This document shows positions 28,285 to 35,264 of a DNA stretch of 64,000 bases, piece by piece (the stretch's first letter is position 1; each line of letters begins with the position of its first letter). This DNA comes from Candidatus Gastranaerophilales bacterium (lineage in GTDB: Bacteria > Cyanobacteriota > Vampirovibrionia > Gastranaerophilales > Gastranaerophilaceae), in NCBI GenBank assembly GCA_947624645.1, contig CANQLG010000006.1, forward strand, positions 1 to 64,000. The letters run 5' to 3'. Under the pieces are notes generated by a model, which saw only the letters and a program-made list of their open reading frames with translations, was not told where the DNA came from and made no database searches. Made by a program: the position numbers and the translations under genes.

Positions 28285-31200
28285 TTATTTATTTTTAACC
28301 ATTTTAACGACTTTAATGTAAGTTTTTTGAGAGCCGTCAGAAATTGTATTTACGGCAGATTTTGTACCGTTAACAACTTTTTTGGTCGGTTTATTCAAGT
28401 CAAACAGATAATTAACACCTGCTTGGAATCCGATACCGTTTATTCCTGCGTTTCTTATGTTTATTTGACCGTATGCGGCGAATCTGTCTTTCCAAGTTTT
28501 TGTACCGCCTATGCCGTATTGAACGTAGCCATGATCCATACGAACATTGGGCAGATGAACATTGCCTGCATGTCCGTCAAGCTTATCATTAATAAAGTAC
28601 ATATAAGATGCACCGGCATATAAGCTCCAAGTTTTCTTTTGCAGAATTAAATTTAATCCCGGAGCAACGTTAACGCCGTTCAGCATACCTGATTGCATAC
28701 CCATAATACCGTAATTTGTGCCCCAATTTTGTTTACCGAATGCATTATAAGCGATAAACAAATTAGGTTGAACGGTAAAGTCTTTAAACGGTTTATAATT
28801 ATAAGCTGCTTTAGCGGCGCTGCCTGCGAACCAGTTACCTGCGTTATCTTCAAACCCAGCAACATCCATATCATTCATATATCCGCCGCCGTAGGCTGTA
28901 ATTGAACCAATGAACTTATCTTTAATAAATGTACCCATAACGCCTAATTGTCCGCCGTTTTGATACATACTTACACCGTCAAAGTGCTGATGACCGCCAT
29001 TATAGCCCACATAACCCGTCGGGATAAATTCCCAATTGTTTTTGAGTTTAACGGACGGAAGATCAGCCCCGATTAACATACCATAAATATTGTTTTTAAC
29101 GCTCAGCCCCTGAGTAAGATCCATCTTATCGAATGATACATAAGATTTAGACCAGAGTCCGCCGTCTTTATATGTTTTTTGGTATGGTTCGAATAAGGTT
29201 GAAGCTGCTGCGTATTTATTAGCCAATTTTGCATTATCAATCAATCTGTCATTATGTAGGATAAAGTGGTTTGTAACAATATCATCAACATGTAATTGGC
29301 TTGTATACATTGCCATTGTAGCGACTTGCCCTCTGAATACCTGAGGATTGTAATGGTCTAAGAATGCTCTATATCTCCCTTGTCCCCTTGATTCTAATCC
29401 ATAATAACCTATCGGGGTGAATTTAAGGTCTTTTGTTGCGTCAAAATTAACTCCTGATTTATCACCCGTAAACAGTGTGAAATAGATATATCTGTCTATT
29501 GGAGCACCGCCTGTAAAATTGAAGTCAGATACATTTAATGTTGCATCTGTACCTTTAATTGAACCAAAGTCAAATTGGTCACCTTTCCAATCTCTGGGGT
29601 TTAAGTCAACAGTAAAGTTAGCATTTCCGTTAACTTCAACATTATCTGCATGAGCGGAATTAATTTCTCCGTTTAATATACCAAGCTGTGTATTATCGGA
29701 CATCTTAAGGTTTTCAGCATTCAGTTCTTTAACTCCCGCACCGAAAGACAGTTTTGATTTACCGTCAATATCTACATCTCCACCTGTTATATAACTGTTA
29801 GAATCTGATATATAGATATTTGATTCATCGGTTAAAGTAGTTTTTCCTTTTGTCTGCTGTAAACCTCCGCCGTGGCCTTTTGTATTATCAATACCGCTAA
29901 CGTTAAAGTTTCCGCCCTCATTTTTAACAAGACCGTTCCATTTATCATTTGTTTTGGAGTCGATGTTAAAAATAGCGCCTTCTTCTTTTATGTCAACAGT
30001 TGAGCCATGTTGTATATCAACAGAAACTTCATCTGCAACAGAGCTTGTTTTTTCGATGTTAAGAACAGAACCGCTTAAAAGGTTCAAATTACCTTTAGTC
30101 GCATTTAGTGTTCCTGCATCTTTCGGGTCTTTCATACCGTAGTCTAAAATACCGCCGTCAAGTATAACTTTACCCTGCCACTCGTCAGCCGTGTCCGTAT
30201 CGTCGTCAAGCTCCAGATACCCGCCTTTTGATAGCGTAACTTCTGAATTTGCATCAATTTTAGTTTTAACTTTCTTTTCTATACCGCTATCGTACTCATC
30301 ATCTGATTTGAATGTAATTTTAGAATTTTCAATATTTACACTGCCTGATGAAGCTTGAAGTTTACCTAATTTTTTTTCATAATCTTTTAATGTAAGTATG
30401 CCTTGAGAGTCATCATCCAAAACTACTGCGCCTGACCAATTATCTTCATTATTAAGGGTTAATGAACCTTTTTCAAGATATACTTGTGAGTTTTCACCTA
30501 TATCAGCTATAACAGCATCTTCAATAGTACTGCCTTCGCCTAATACAAGCTGAGTTTCTCCCGTAAGGTTTAATTTGCCTTTTTCAGCCGTAAGAGTGCC
30601 TGTACCCTCTTCATAATTATTAGTCAAATCATCAAGTGTTAAAGTACCGTCTTTAAGATTTACACTTCCAAGCCAATTGCCTTGGGATAAAATAACATCG
30701 CCGCCCTCGACATTTAATTTACCGTTTTTCCAAATATTTGTAGTAACTTCTTTGGCAACGGAACTATTGGCTTTGAATGTTATTTCGCCTGCATCGGTAT
30801 CGTTATCGCCAACGTTAAATACTGTTTTTTCACCCGAAATATTAAGTTTAGCATCATCAGCCAAATCATTTTTAGTGAACCAATTAAATTGACCTGCTGT
30901 TACGTTTGACTCTCCGCCGAAGAATGTTCCTAAAACATCTGTTTCAGCATTATCTCCATCTTGAGTGAAATTACCTGTATATTTTGAAGCATCACCTTCT
31001 AATTCCAAATCTCCGTTGTTTATAAATTTTCCGTTTCCTGTAACGCTTGAGTTTGCAGATATTGAAAAATCAGCATCTTCTTTATTGGTGAAATTACCTG
31101 TATTATTGAGTTCGTCTCCGTTAAACTCCATAATACCCGAGTTATCGAATTTTTGAGAGTTTGTAAATGTTGAATCTTCCGTGAATGTCAAATTTTCTCT

Positions 31201-34200
31201 GTTTACCGTATTGCCATTATTTTCGAAGCTTTCTGTGACAGTATTTTTGCCATAGAATGCCATTGAATAATCACTGTTAGGTTCAGGCAAAGAACCGGTA
31301 GAATTATTTGCCAACTCAGAGAATGTATTTGTACCCGTGAAGAACGAAACACCATCCGAATCATTTGTATATAAGGAATTAAATGTATTTTCTCCCTGCG
31401 TTTGAATAAAGCCTTTATTGTAAATATCATTGTTAGCGTCAGCTGTTGCAGCCTCTGTTGTAACACCGTCAAGCAGTATAAAACCGTTTGAATCATTATA
31501 GATGGCACCGCCGTCACCATTTGCATAGGCTTTATTATTACTGAACGTAGAATTTTTAACCCATAGACCTGTTGTGAATGCAGCGCTCTCTACATTTTCT
31601 TGTCCGCCATTATTGTATATAGCACCGCCTTTTCCTGTACTTGATGATGATGAATTACCTGTTATATTGAGGTTATCCAATATAACGGAGGAATTTTCAC
31701 TTGCGTTATGGAGTACGGAGCCGCCTCGTTCCGTGGAGTCAGCGTCTTTTATAGTCAGGTTTTTAACGGTTAAGTTAACATTGCCGCTTTCTTCAATATT
31801 AAAGAAGCTGCCTTTATTTTCCGTTACTATACCGCCTTGTTTTAGCTTACCTGAAAGTACGCTGTCAGAAGCGGTATTGCTTCTACCTTGTACTGTAAAA
31901 TTACCGTCAAGAGTTTTTTCAAGTGATTTACCTATGTTATATACTTGGTCATCATCTGTTGAGAATTGGAAAAACCTGTTATCCGTTGTTTCACTATCCA
32001 TTTTGTATAGCGAATTTTCGTCAGCTATACCCGAAATATCTGCTGTGATACCCTTTTGGTCGTTGTTTACCGTAATATCATATTCAAATGCGGTGGTTGC
32101 ACCTTTTACACCTGTTTTTGTATCACCATTTGATAACTTTAATCCGTATGCGCCTGTACCTGTGCCTCTTAATACTCCTTCATTTTCTTTTGTAGTAAAA
32201 CTTTGACCTTTTTCAACATTTTTTTCAGACGAAATAAATATATTACCGAGCCCAAGTTCTCCCGAGCCGCTGTTTACGGTTAAAGAGTCTGTTTCTAAGA
32301 CATTACCATCCTTAAATTTAATATCGAAATCTATTTTGCTTTTACTGCTTTTTGGTGCAGCAAAACTCTCAAAAATATACGAATTTATAGTATTATCATC
32401 ATCATGGAGGTCTAGTGTACTGTTATTAAGTGTAAAGTTTTTGTAACCGAAATTGCTTCCGCTTAATTTTAAGCTTGAATTATTAAACGTAACGGAGCCT
32501 AAATTTTCATTAGTAATATTATCTGACAAAGTAAATACCGTACCTGTGCCGTTACCTGTAAAATTAGCATTTCCGCCATTATCCGAAGAAAATTGTAACA
32601 ATTTATTATCAATAGTTCCGTTTTCGGTTAAATCGCCATTAACAGTGTAGTTAAATGTTGAACCGTTTGAAAGGTTAACAAGCCCTTTATATAAAGCGGA
32701 GCCTGAAGCGGTAAGTGTACCGCCTTGTATATTTTTTTCACCGCCAAATAAGCTATTAGAACTTGCGGTTGTTTCTCCTGCGGTTTGGGTGAATGTCCCC
32801 GTGTAGCTTGAAGCATCACCTGATAAAGTAAGTTTTCCGCCTTGATTGGTTATTACAGCCGAAGCGTCTGTACCTGTTACATTGCCTGATATTGTTAGCT
32901 CTCCCGTATTGGTAATTGAACCGGATTCTTTGTTATCAATTGCTTTAAGTTCACCGCCGTTCATTTTAATATTACCTGTGTTTGTCAAGCTTTCTGTAAC
33001 GGTCAGCTTGCCTTTGGAGGTAATATTACCTGCATTGGTTGCGGTTTTTGTTATTGTAATACCGCCTGAAGTTGATTCTATTAAGCCTGTATTATTTGCA
33101 AGGCTATCAAAGTTAAGCTCGCTTCCTTGTATTAATTCACCTGAGTTTGTAACGTCAGTAGCAGAGATTTTTCCTGTTGCATTAATTTTACTTCCTGCAA
33201 CATCATTTTTAATCTTTCCTGTCACTGTGATATTGTTTGCAGTTATAGTACCTTTACTTGTGCTTCCGTTTATTAAATCACCTTTTGTCAGAGTAATATC
33301 ACCTGTTGTGATTTCACCGCTATTTGTAATATTACCGTCAGTAACATCTATAATAGCGGCAGAAATTGTGCCCAAGTTTTGGATTGCATTTGATGATGGT
33401 GCATTTTCTCCCGTAAGAGTTAATGTCCCTGTTAAATTCAAATTACTTTTTGCATCTGAACCATCGTATGAGCCGAATTCTGCACTCGTTCCCGTTATAT
33501 TAGCTTTATTTGTAACACTTTTTACATTAAAAGCAGTACCTGTTGAATTAAGATGAGCGCCAGAAGTGCCGCTTTCATCTCCATTTATAAGTGTATCGGC
33601 TGTTAATGAGCCCGTGCTTACAAAATTACCTTCGTTACTTATGGTTTTTGCTTCAAGTGTTCCTCTATTATCAACTTTGCCTTTATTTGTTAAAGTTCCT
33701 GTTGTACCGTTTATTGTTAATTTGGCATTTGCTGTATTAACTAAAGAGGGGGTGTTTTCGCCTTGAGCTTCACCAACAGTAACATCACCTGATATTACCG
33801 TTGTTGCGCTTGCTGTGTTTGTGATAACGCCTGCTGCGTCAGATGTTGCCGATACGGTAAGTTTTGTACCTTCTGCTAAAGTATAGTTATTTGTACCGCT
33901 AAAATTAAGTTCTTTTATATTTTTACCGTCAACGGTTAAACCTGTATTATCGGTACCGCTATATTTTTCAAGGTTTAAAATTGTATTATTATTTGTTCCT
34001 TGAGCAATAGTTGTAAGTGTTTCAGTATCATTAGTCATATTTGTCAGGGTTAAATTTGCATTTTGTGTTGTCAGTTTTAAATCTTTTGAAAGCCCTGAGC
34101 TTTCACCATTAAATGTTATGGTATCGTTTGTTAACTTTAATGCACCTTGACCACTTATTTTATTAGATAATGTCAGGGTTTTTTTATTATTAAAGCCATC

Positions 34201-35175
34201 CAAGGTCAACTCGGAATCTTTTTGAACCTCCATGTGTATAGATTGGGCAATAGTGTCTTTTGAGCTTAATGTTAGTTTAGAAGTAGTTAAACCATCTCCG
34301 ACGGTTAAATTAGTGTTGTCACCAAATATAATACTGCCTCTACCTGTATCATTATTTGCTGCCTGCCAGTTAAAAGTACCTGCTTGAATATTAGATTCAC
34401 CTTTAAAGTATTTTGTGCCATTAAATGTTGTTTTACCTTCTGCATTATTTTGAGTATATTTACCCGTAAAGTTATTGTTATTACCGCCTAAAACAAATTC
34501 GTTAGCACCCGAATGGTTAATTTTTTGATTATCATTGTATGAACGGATACCGTTTCCTATTTCAACCGTTCCACCGTCGCCTTTTATATCTATATTTAGA
34601 TTATCCCCAAATAACGTAATATCGTATGTGCTTTCGGTAGAATTTATTTGTTTGTCAAAAATCACATTACCTGTTCCTGAACTTTCAAGTGTGAGTGTTC
34701 CACCGTACATTAAAATGGTACCGTTAACTCTATAACTGCCTGAACCATAAGGTGTTGTCTTAATACTTGAGCCAAATTCAACCCCCGGGCCGATCTTTAC
34801 ATCCCCCTGACTAAAAATTACATACCCTACACCTTTCTCAGACTCTTCACCAAAACTATCAAATTTTACACCCTGTATTGTTAAACTGCTGTCTGCTCCT
34901 TGAACTTGAAAAGCACCGGTTTCTGAAGCTGTGTTACTAGGTGTAAACGAAGAGTTTTCCTGTCCCGTTATAGTAACATCTTTATCACTATATTCTATTA
35001 AACTATTAAATTGGATATTACTTCCCGTTTCTATTTCAACAGGACTTTCATTATTATCAATAGCGTTTTTTAAGTCATTAAAATTATTGACTTCTTGTGC
35101 GGAATATACATTTAATGACGATATCGCCATAGTGCACAACAGCGCTGCCGCATTCAAATTAATTTTCTTCTTCAA
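28285..35175 (-). CDS. Giant autotransporter adhesin with Pmp-like motifs
   Basis: The 2296-residue protein has a signal peptide (MKKKINLN then a hydrophobic core, cleavage after YSA-26), a very long beta-helix passenger rich in NTGNIT/LTLTG-type repeats, and a C-terminal beta-barrel (about 2000-2262) ending GVNYLF. Around residues 1180-1225 there are GGAIYN and FSNN motifs like chlamydial polymorphic membrane proteins. After the terminal Phe of the barrel 34 further residues follow (ending KMVKNK), which is unusual. The start is TTG at 35175, five bases after a G9 tract acting as Shine-Dalgarno. It probably mediates host or cell adhesion. Confidence 0.9.
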   Translation of the reverse strand: MKKKINLNAAALLCTMAISSLNVYSAQEVNNFNDLKNAIDNNESPVEIETGSNIQFNSLIEYSDKDVTITGQENSSFTPSNTASETGAFQVQGADSSLTIQGVKFDSFGEESEKGVGYVIFSQGDVKIGPGVEFGSSIKTTPYGSGSYRVNGTILMYGGTLTLESSGTGNVIFDKQINSTESTYDITLFGDNLNIDIKGDGGTVEIGNGIRSYNDNQKINHSGANEFVLGGNNNNFTGKYTQNNAEGKTTFNGTKYFKGESNIQAGTFNWQAANNDTGRGSIIFGDNTNLTVGDGLTTSKLTLSSKDTIAQSIHMEVQKDSELTLDGFNNKKTLTLSNKISGQGALKLTNDTITFNGESSGLSKDLKLTTQNANLTLTNMTNDTETLTTIAQGTNNNTILNLEKYSGTDNTGLTVDGKNIKELNFSGTNNYTLAEGTKLTVSATSDAAGVITNTASATTVISGDVTVGEAQGENTPSLVNTANAKLTINGTTGTLTNKGKVDNRGTLEAKTISNEGNFVSTGSLTADTLINGDESGTSGAHLNSTGTAFNVKSVTNKANITGTSAEFGSYDGSDAKSNLNLTGTLTLTGENAPSSNAIQNLGTISAAIIDVTDGNITNSGEITTGDITLTKGDLINGSTSKGTITANNITVTGKIKNDVAGSKINATGKISATDVTNSGELIQGSELNFDSLANNTGLIESTSGGITITKTATNAGNITSKGKLTVTESLTNTGNIKMNGGELKAIDNKESGSITNTGELTISGNVTGTDASAVITNQGGKLTLSGDASSYTGTFTQTAGETTASSNSLFGGEKNIQGGTLTASGSALYKGLVNLSNGSTFNYTVNGDLTENGTIDNKLLQFSSDNGGNANFTGNGTGTVFTLSDNITNENLGSVTFNNSSLKLSGSNFGYKNFTLNNSTLDLHDDDNTINSYIFESFAAPKSSKSKIDFDIKFKDGNVLETDSLTVNSGSGELGLGNIFISSEKNVEKGQSFTTKENEGVLRGTGTGAYGLKLSNGDTKTGVKGATTAFEYDITVNNDQKGITADISGIADENSLYKMDSETTDNRFFQFSTDDDQVYNIGKSLEKTLDGNFTVQGRSNTASDSVLSGKLKQGGIVTENKGSFFNIEESGNVNLTVKNLTIKDADSTERGGSVLHNASENSSVILDNLNITGNSSSSSTGKGGAIYNNGGQENVESAAFTTGLWVKNSTFSNNKAYANGDGGAIYNDSNGFILLDGVTTEAATADANNDIYNKGFIQTQGENTFNSLYTNDSDGVSFFTGTNTFSELANNSTGSLPEPNSDYSMAFYGKNTVTESFENNGNTVNRENLTFTEDSTFTNSQKFDNSGIMEFNGDELNNTGNFTNKEDADFSISANSSVTGNGKFINNGDLELEGDASKYTGNFTQDGDNAETDVLGTFFGGESNVTAGQFNWFTKNDLADDAKLNISGEKTVFNVGDNDTDAGEITFKANSSVAKEVTTNIWKNGKLNVEGGDVILSQGNWLGSVNLKDGTLTLDDLTNNYEEGTGTLTAEKGKLNLTGETQLVLGEGSTIEDAVIADIGENSQVYLEKGSLTLNNEDNWSGAVVLDDDSQGILTLKDYEKKLGKLQASSGSVNIENSKITFKSDDEYDSGIEKKVKTKIDANSEVTLSKGGYLELDDDTDTADEWQGKVILDGGILDYGMKDPKDAGTLNATKGNLNLLSGSVLNIEKTSSVADEVSVDIQHGSTVDIKEEGAIFNIDSKTNDKWNGLVKNEGGNFNVSGIDNTKGHGGGLQQTKGKTTLTDESNIYISDSNSYITGGDVDIDGKSKLSFGAGVKELNAENLKMSDNTQLGILNGEINSAHADNVEVNGNANFTVDLNPRDWKGDQFDFGSIKGTDATLNVSDFNFTGGAPIDRYIYFTLFTGDKSGVNFDATKDLKFTPIGYYGLESRGQGRYRAFLDHYNPQVFRGQVATMAMYTSQLHVDDIVTNHFILHNDRLIDNAKLANKYAAASTLFEPYQKTYKDGGLWSKSYVSFDKMDLTQGLSVKNNIYGMLIGADLPSVKLKNNWEFIPTGYVGYNGGHQHFDGVSMYQNGGQLGVMGTFIKDKFIGSITAYGGGYMNDMDVAGFEDNAGNWFAGSAAKAAYNYKPFKDFTVQPNLFIAYNAFGKQNWGTNYGIMGMQSGMLNGVNVAPGLNLILQKKTWSLYAGASYMYFINDKLDGHAGNVHLPNVRMDHGYVQYGIGGTKTWKDRFAAYGQINIRNAGINGIGFQAGVNYLFDLNKPTKKVVNGTKSAVNTISDGSQKTYIKVVKMVKNK

Positions 35176-35180
35176 TTTTA

Positions 35181-35189
35181 CCCCCCCCC
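35181..35189 (-). promoter_or_regulatory. G9 homopolymer at the autotransporter ribosome site
   Basis: Nine Gs on the minus strand end five bases before the TTG start. An ATG at 35216 reads through the same tract in a different frame (MSPVGIFATGGG) and stops at G9; with G8 it would enter the autotransporter frame. The tract may therefore be a length-dependent switch. Confidence 0.6.
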
Positions 35190-35234
35190 GTGGCGAAAAT
35201 ACCCACAGGAGACATACTTCTAACTACATTATTA

Positions 35235-35264
35235 ATTATATATTAAAAATATTTGAGTTTTCAA
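35235..35264 (-). promoter_or_regulatory. Autotransporter promoter
   Basis: On the minus strand TTGAAA (35264-35259) and TATAAT (35240-35235) are 18 bases apart, about 10 bases before ATG 35216. Confidence 0.7.

Follow-up and report, generated by a model that had tools for sequence, protein, structure and literature searches.

The adhesin gene leader analyzed here probably carries a contingency ribosome-binding site, in which a tract of nine Gs (G9) is tuned by its length and gated in a graded manner by a hairpin in cis. The leader lies on the minus strand of the window (the whole 64,000-nt stretch of DNA that was analyzed), which belongs to a 2.14-Mb genome assembly (71 contigs) of a Candidatus Gastranaerophilales bacterium. 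Gastranaerophilales are a non-photosynthetic cyanobacterial group of the gut. In the adhesin mRNA, the tract would double as the Shine-Dalgarno (SD) sequence and the 3' arm of a short hairpin in the 5' untranslated region (UTR). The 5' arm of this hairpin, CTCC followed by T or C, would mimic the anti-SD sequence and vie with the ribosome for the Gs of the tract. This competition is proposed because CUCC(C/U) resembles the anti-SD CCUCC and because the tract lies 3-5 nt from the start codon. Slipped-strand gain or loss of a G would change the number of Gs left free once the hairpin is paired, and adhesin translation would move in steps, being low at G7 or less, intermediate at G8-G9 and near full at G10 or more, with the reading frame unchanged. 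Slippage of the tract in vivo and the importance of these steps are inferred.

The minus strand reads GCCAC-GGGGGGGGG-TAAAA-TTG, with the tract at 35181-35189 as a predicted SD sequence and contingency homopolymer, and the TTG start codon at 35173-35175. The tract ends five bases before TTG 35175, exactly as the original prediction had it. Farther upstream on the same strand, a TATAAT -10 hexamer (35235-35240) and a -35-like TTGAAA hexamer (35259-35264) are separated by an 18-nt spacer, and TATAAT is also present 5' of most of the homologous leaders described below. From the position of the -10 hexamer, the transcription start was placed near 35228, and the leader between promoter and tract is approximately 50 nt long. 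A whole-window scan found no other run of at least 7 Gs; GGAG/AGGA-type sites precede 17 of 35 ordinary genes of the window, about half.

The TTG opens a frame of 2296 codons (28285-35175, minus strand) for a repeat-rich autotransporter, probably an adhesin, with full-length orthologues of 66-68% identity in two other species. Its N terminus is a signal peptide predicted by inspection, LKKKINLNAAALLCTMAISSLNVYSA (35098-35175, minus strand), which is similar in homologues. Searches of Pfam and NCBIfam with the adhesin gave no convincing match. The C-terminal translocator (28288-29388, minus strand) was modeled as a helix and about 12 strands with low confidence (mean pLDDT of only 43), and the best PDB matches of this domain in Foldseek were the barrels of EspP, Hbp, BrkA and NalP (E-values down to 7e-10), all of the top 15 matches being autotransporters. 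These fold matches therefore support the autotransporter identity of the modeled protein. Its signal peptide, long repetitive passenger and C-terminal helix with a 12-strand barrel (in the low-confidence model) are those of a type Va autotransporter. The gene had originally been described as that of a giant autotransporter adhesin; the barrel matches bear out the autotransporter part, and the long repetitive passenger suggests the adhesin role.

We collected 16 homologous leaders from nine species, three of them from the window genome (the window and two more loci) and the rest from eight further species; both of the 66-68% full-length orthologues are included. All share a common layout, i.e. 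CYCC (CTCC or CCCC), a stem, a variable loop, G9 or G10, 3-5 nt, a TTG or ATG start codon and a signal peptide. The tract is G9 in 13 leaders and G10 in three, and the start codon is TTG in 14 and ATG in two. Translation from the start right after the tract gives a proper signal peptide whatever the tract length.

A conserved hairpin with covarying stem pairs, a structure that is well supported, has the G tract as its 3' arm. In the window leader, the 5' arm TCTCCTGTGG (35203-35212, minus strand) holds an invariant C[T/C]CC similar to the anti-SD CCUCC, the loop GTATTTTCG (35194-35202, minus strand) differs in length and sequence between homologues, and the 3' arm CCACGGGGGG (35184-35193, minus strand) takes in Gs 1-6 of the tract as its last six bases. 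When folded, all 16 leaders use the tract as the 3' arm (z-scores of -0.8 to -4.6 against shuffled arms), and stem pairs 1-5 join CYCC and a further Y to tract Gs in every one of them. Further stem pairs co-vary (GUGG/CCAC, GCAG/CUGC, GCGG/CUGC and GUAG/UUAC), and one stem position shows U-A, A-U, C-G and G-U pairs across the leaders. For pairs 7-9, 39 of 48 cells pair, compared with 28.0 when the 3' arms are swapped between leaders; only 3 of 20,000 swaps reached such a value (p = 0.003 once duplicates were removed). In a MAFFT alignment, the given register pairs 86.8% of cells, and slid registers pair 54-72% (at most 72.2%). The signal is confined to the hairpin, as the whole leader with the early coding region folds no better than shuffles (z = -0.54). 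That poly-G tracts form such hairpins in general was ruled out by the other 47 testable tracts of the genome, which as a group give no signal (mean z of -0.17, CYCC in 3 of 47).

It is because the tract forms the 3' arm of this hairpin, a point absent from the original prediction, that its length would be relevant. For the 16 leaders at tract lengths of G5-G12, we calculated the sum of opening and duplex energies, using the general bacterial anti-SD sequence in a model that leaves out co-transcriptional folding and rRNA context. The general sequence stands in for the 16S rRNA end, which was sought in the assembly of the window genome and is missing from it; one match to GGATCACCTCC in the genus was inspected as a candidate 16S anti-SD and rejected, being located in a clp-like gene. 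The mean energies are -0.8 kcal/mol at G6, -2.3 at G7, -4.1 at G8, -4.6 at G9 and -6.7 at G10, and are nearly flat thereafter, so that from G6 to G10 every G gained is calculated to free the ribosome site, by approximately 6 kcal/mol overall. With the upstream sequence shuffled, the energies are nearly flat at -5.5 to -6.6 kcal/mol and the length effect is gone. The window leader itself gives -3.7, -5.9 and -8.1 kcal/mol at G8, G9 and G10, in steps of about 2.2 each. The model thus predicts graded tuning of translation with no change of frame. The original suggestion that tract length could change SD strength stands as a prediction from these calculations of ribosome-site access, acting via a hairpin that it did not include.

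The same conservation might instead reflect a fixed element, in which tract and hairpin form a conserved translation element, RNA thermometer or mRNA stabilizer, and G9 is under selection for one expression level with no switch. We consider this unlikely. Tract length may be nearly fixed, because G9 is found in 13 and G10 in three of the 16 leaders and the adhesin-leader pair of two near species keeps G9 in both; the conserved hairpin is equally compatible with a fixed role. A distant orthologue (45% identity; L082 in G011:C14) has no homopolymer and carries CTCTCC..GAGAGG before its TTG, which by its sequence may be an equivalent gated site that lacks the tract; however, in the full context of this locus the folding calculation favors another structure over the simple hairpin. 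Also against a fixed element, the genome holds 52 tracts, many in surface genes, and an ordinary GAGAGG would do for a fixed function. G homopolymers of 9-10 are known for their instability. Among nine matched tract pairs of the two near species, three differ by one G, as do two of the six cleaner pairs with flanks approximately 90% identical or more. Contig ends fall near tracts more often than expected, with three within ~10 nt of a tract in the window genome and, in another genome of the genus (G014), 9 of 33 tracts within ~60 nt of a contig end (C17, C23, C26, C40, C76, C78, C108, C137 and C174); such breaks fit mixtures of tract lengths or, equally, sequencing trouble at poly-G.

The tract-filled genome bears on the preferred reading, a slippable and hairpin-gated ribosome site, as well. 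The 52 runs of at least 8 Gs, compared with 29 runs of exactly 6 Gs, comprise 5 of G8, 30 of G9, 12 of G10, 3 of G11 and one each of G12 and G13 in the stretches fetched. Across 35 genomes of the genus, 21 contain 18-121 tracts and 14 contain 0-13, and tract-poor species mostly have 0-5 runs of at least 8 Gs. Exact G6 runs are similar in tract-rich and tract-poor species (29 here; 19, 20 and 28 in G017, G020 and G005); therefore, the excess of long runs is not due to chance or composition, and a chance homopolymer is ruled out by this genus comparison, by the genome-wide count and by the uniqueness of the tract in the window. The adhesin tract is thus longer than chance would give and lies in the leader of a surface gene. 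The original idea of a contingency locus is upheld as far as the conserved G tract at the autotransporter ribosome site and the genome full of tracts are concerned; the phase switch itself is partly supported.

Many of the genes at the scanned tracts are related to the surface or glycans, such as glycosyltransferases, TupA-like ATP-grasp, AlgX-like, acyltransferase-3, Kelch and WG-repeat proteins, in addition to autotransporters. About ten tracts lie in a promoter-like spacer, TTTGCYTC-[G9-11]-TAAAAGTGG-TATAAT, 5' of genes including those of Kelch-repeat proteins (among L041, L055, L065, L067, L068, L069 and L072 in the same genome), where a change of length would shift the -35/-10 spacing. 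An array of four similar genes (L043:8738-13829 in G000:C3), the one scanned being AlgX-like, has a C tract in a matching position in each gene (G9, G9, G10 and G9), and the frames flanking the tract join in only one of the four. Many other tracts of the genome fall within the final 1-10% of a reading frame (L047, L054, L057, L059, L061, L066 and L073), some of them immediately before the start of the next gene, a position compatible with possible C-terminal switching or coupling.

Loss of mutS was ruled out as the source of the many tracts, since both tract-rich and tract-poor species have mutS. On the mutS tree, the tract-rich state is scattered, with 6 changes, at least 3 of which are forced by well-supported branches. 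Species rich in tracts (18-121) branch among those poor in tracts (0-13) on this tree (G001-G034), and from this pattern the whole contingency repertoire may have been gained or lost repeatedly in the genus.

A second way in which tract length might act is through the reading frame. An ATG, originally put at 35216 and in fact at 35215, lies 10-13 nt past the expected transcription start, in line with the approximately 10 bases first stated. At G9 it encodes MSPVGIFATGGGKIEEEN and then a stop (35159-35215, minus strand), reading through the tract as had been proposed and stopping a few codons past it rather than at it. The frame arithmetic relating this ATG to the TTG is correct, in that G8 would put the two in frame. 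According to this explanation, G8 or G11 lets translation from ATG 35215 enter the adhesin and G9 uses TTG only. Two other autotransporter loci of the same genome lend it some plausibility, as in each the tract lies in frame ahead of a signal peptide, within an open frame that belongs to an autotransporter or lies beside one (L044:2064 and L060:1584 in G000:C4 and C16, respectively); the tract of L044 includes the G of the ATG, and this arrangement would be a classical frame switch in the window genome. For the window leader, however, a frame switch is very improbable. ATG 35215 occurs in this leader only among the 16, a few nucleotides from the probable 5' end and with no obvious ribosome site, and we judged its short frame incidental, as it is not conserved. 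Elsewhere, upstream starts would be in frame at one G fewer (as in the window), at the present length (e.g., G019C27) or at one G more (G028C59), and in six of the 16 leaders an upstream start is absent or never in frame. There is no common frame relation among them; therefore, a start-choice switch is not a conserved feature, and this part of the original prediction is not supported. The tract does not separate the conserved start codon from the remainder of the frame, since that start (TTG or ATG) is 3' of the tract and yields the signal peptide at any length.

Regulation in trans is a further alternative, in which a C/U-rich small RNA (sRNA) targets the G tract and the cis hairpin is secondary. 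Its precedent is the tlpB-hp0102 leader of Helicobacter pylori, in which the sRNA RepG pairs through its C/U-rich loop with a variable G-repeat, with established and gradual control of expression (PMC8295292). In the leaders examined here, the cis arm hardly varies and the stem shows covariation; therefore, the pairing partner is already within the leader, and we regard control by an sRNA as scarcely probable. The tlpB system is nevertheless the nearest known relative of a cis-gated ribosome site, sharing the G homopolymer in the 5' UTR, the C/U-rich partner and an output that is graded rather than ON/OFF (predicted here). Unlike in tlpB, the tract is at the SD position and its partner, according to structure prediction and covariation, is supplied by the 5' hairpin arm of the leader itself; the window leader would work like the RepG/tlpB type and is not classed as a member, the partner there being a trans sRNA.

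Other adhesin genes offer partial parallels. In Moraxella catarrhalis, uspA1 likewise has a poly-G upstream of an adhesin gene, with graded expression as the outcome, and in one strain G8-10 gave low and G11-12 high mRNA (PMC7302503). Unlike the present case, uspA1 is reported to act on transcript level and belongs to another protein family and phylum, and the parts of that report available to us describe no cis hairpin (PMC7302503). The length of a rheostat-like repetitive DNA element tunes expression of the H. pylori adhesin SabA gradually; in contrast to our model, the accessible portion of that work mentions no hairpin-gated ribosome site for sabA (PMC4081817). In the phasomes of Campylobacter, Helicobacter and Neisseria, surface and glycosylation genes likewise carry numerous G tracts, some in promoters and some within reading frames (PMC6321876, PMC2823697, PMC5953494); these phasomes belong to Campylobacterota and Proteobacteria, as opposed to a Gastranaerophilales genus here. 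The frame and promoter tracts of Helicobacter canadensis (PMC2823697) have counterparts in the window genome. In the open-licence literature searched, we found neither a precedent for a cis hairpin with a slippable arm as a ribosome site nor a report of phase variation in Gastranaerophilales.

It is quite possible, though we put this more tentatively than the mechanism itself, that these leaders represent an undescribed class of phase variation, in which a slippable SD homopolymer gated by an anti-SD-mimic hairpin arm tunes giant adhesins stepwise, in a gut lineage of the cyanobacterial phylum with dozens of contingency tracts per genome. If true, translation would be switched in a graded manner with neither a change of frame nor a trans-acting factor, and the switch would be legible from sequence alone. 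It would also mean large-scale contingency-locus phase variation in Gastranaerophilales (Melainabacteria), and the surface adhesin and polysaccharide genes of this common, mostly uncultured gut lineage would be heterogeneous inside each host.
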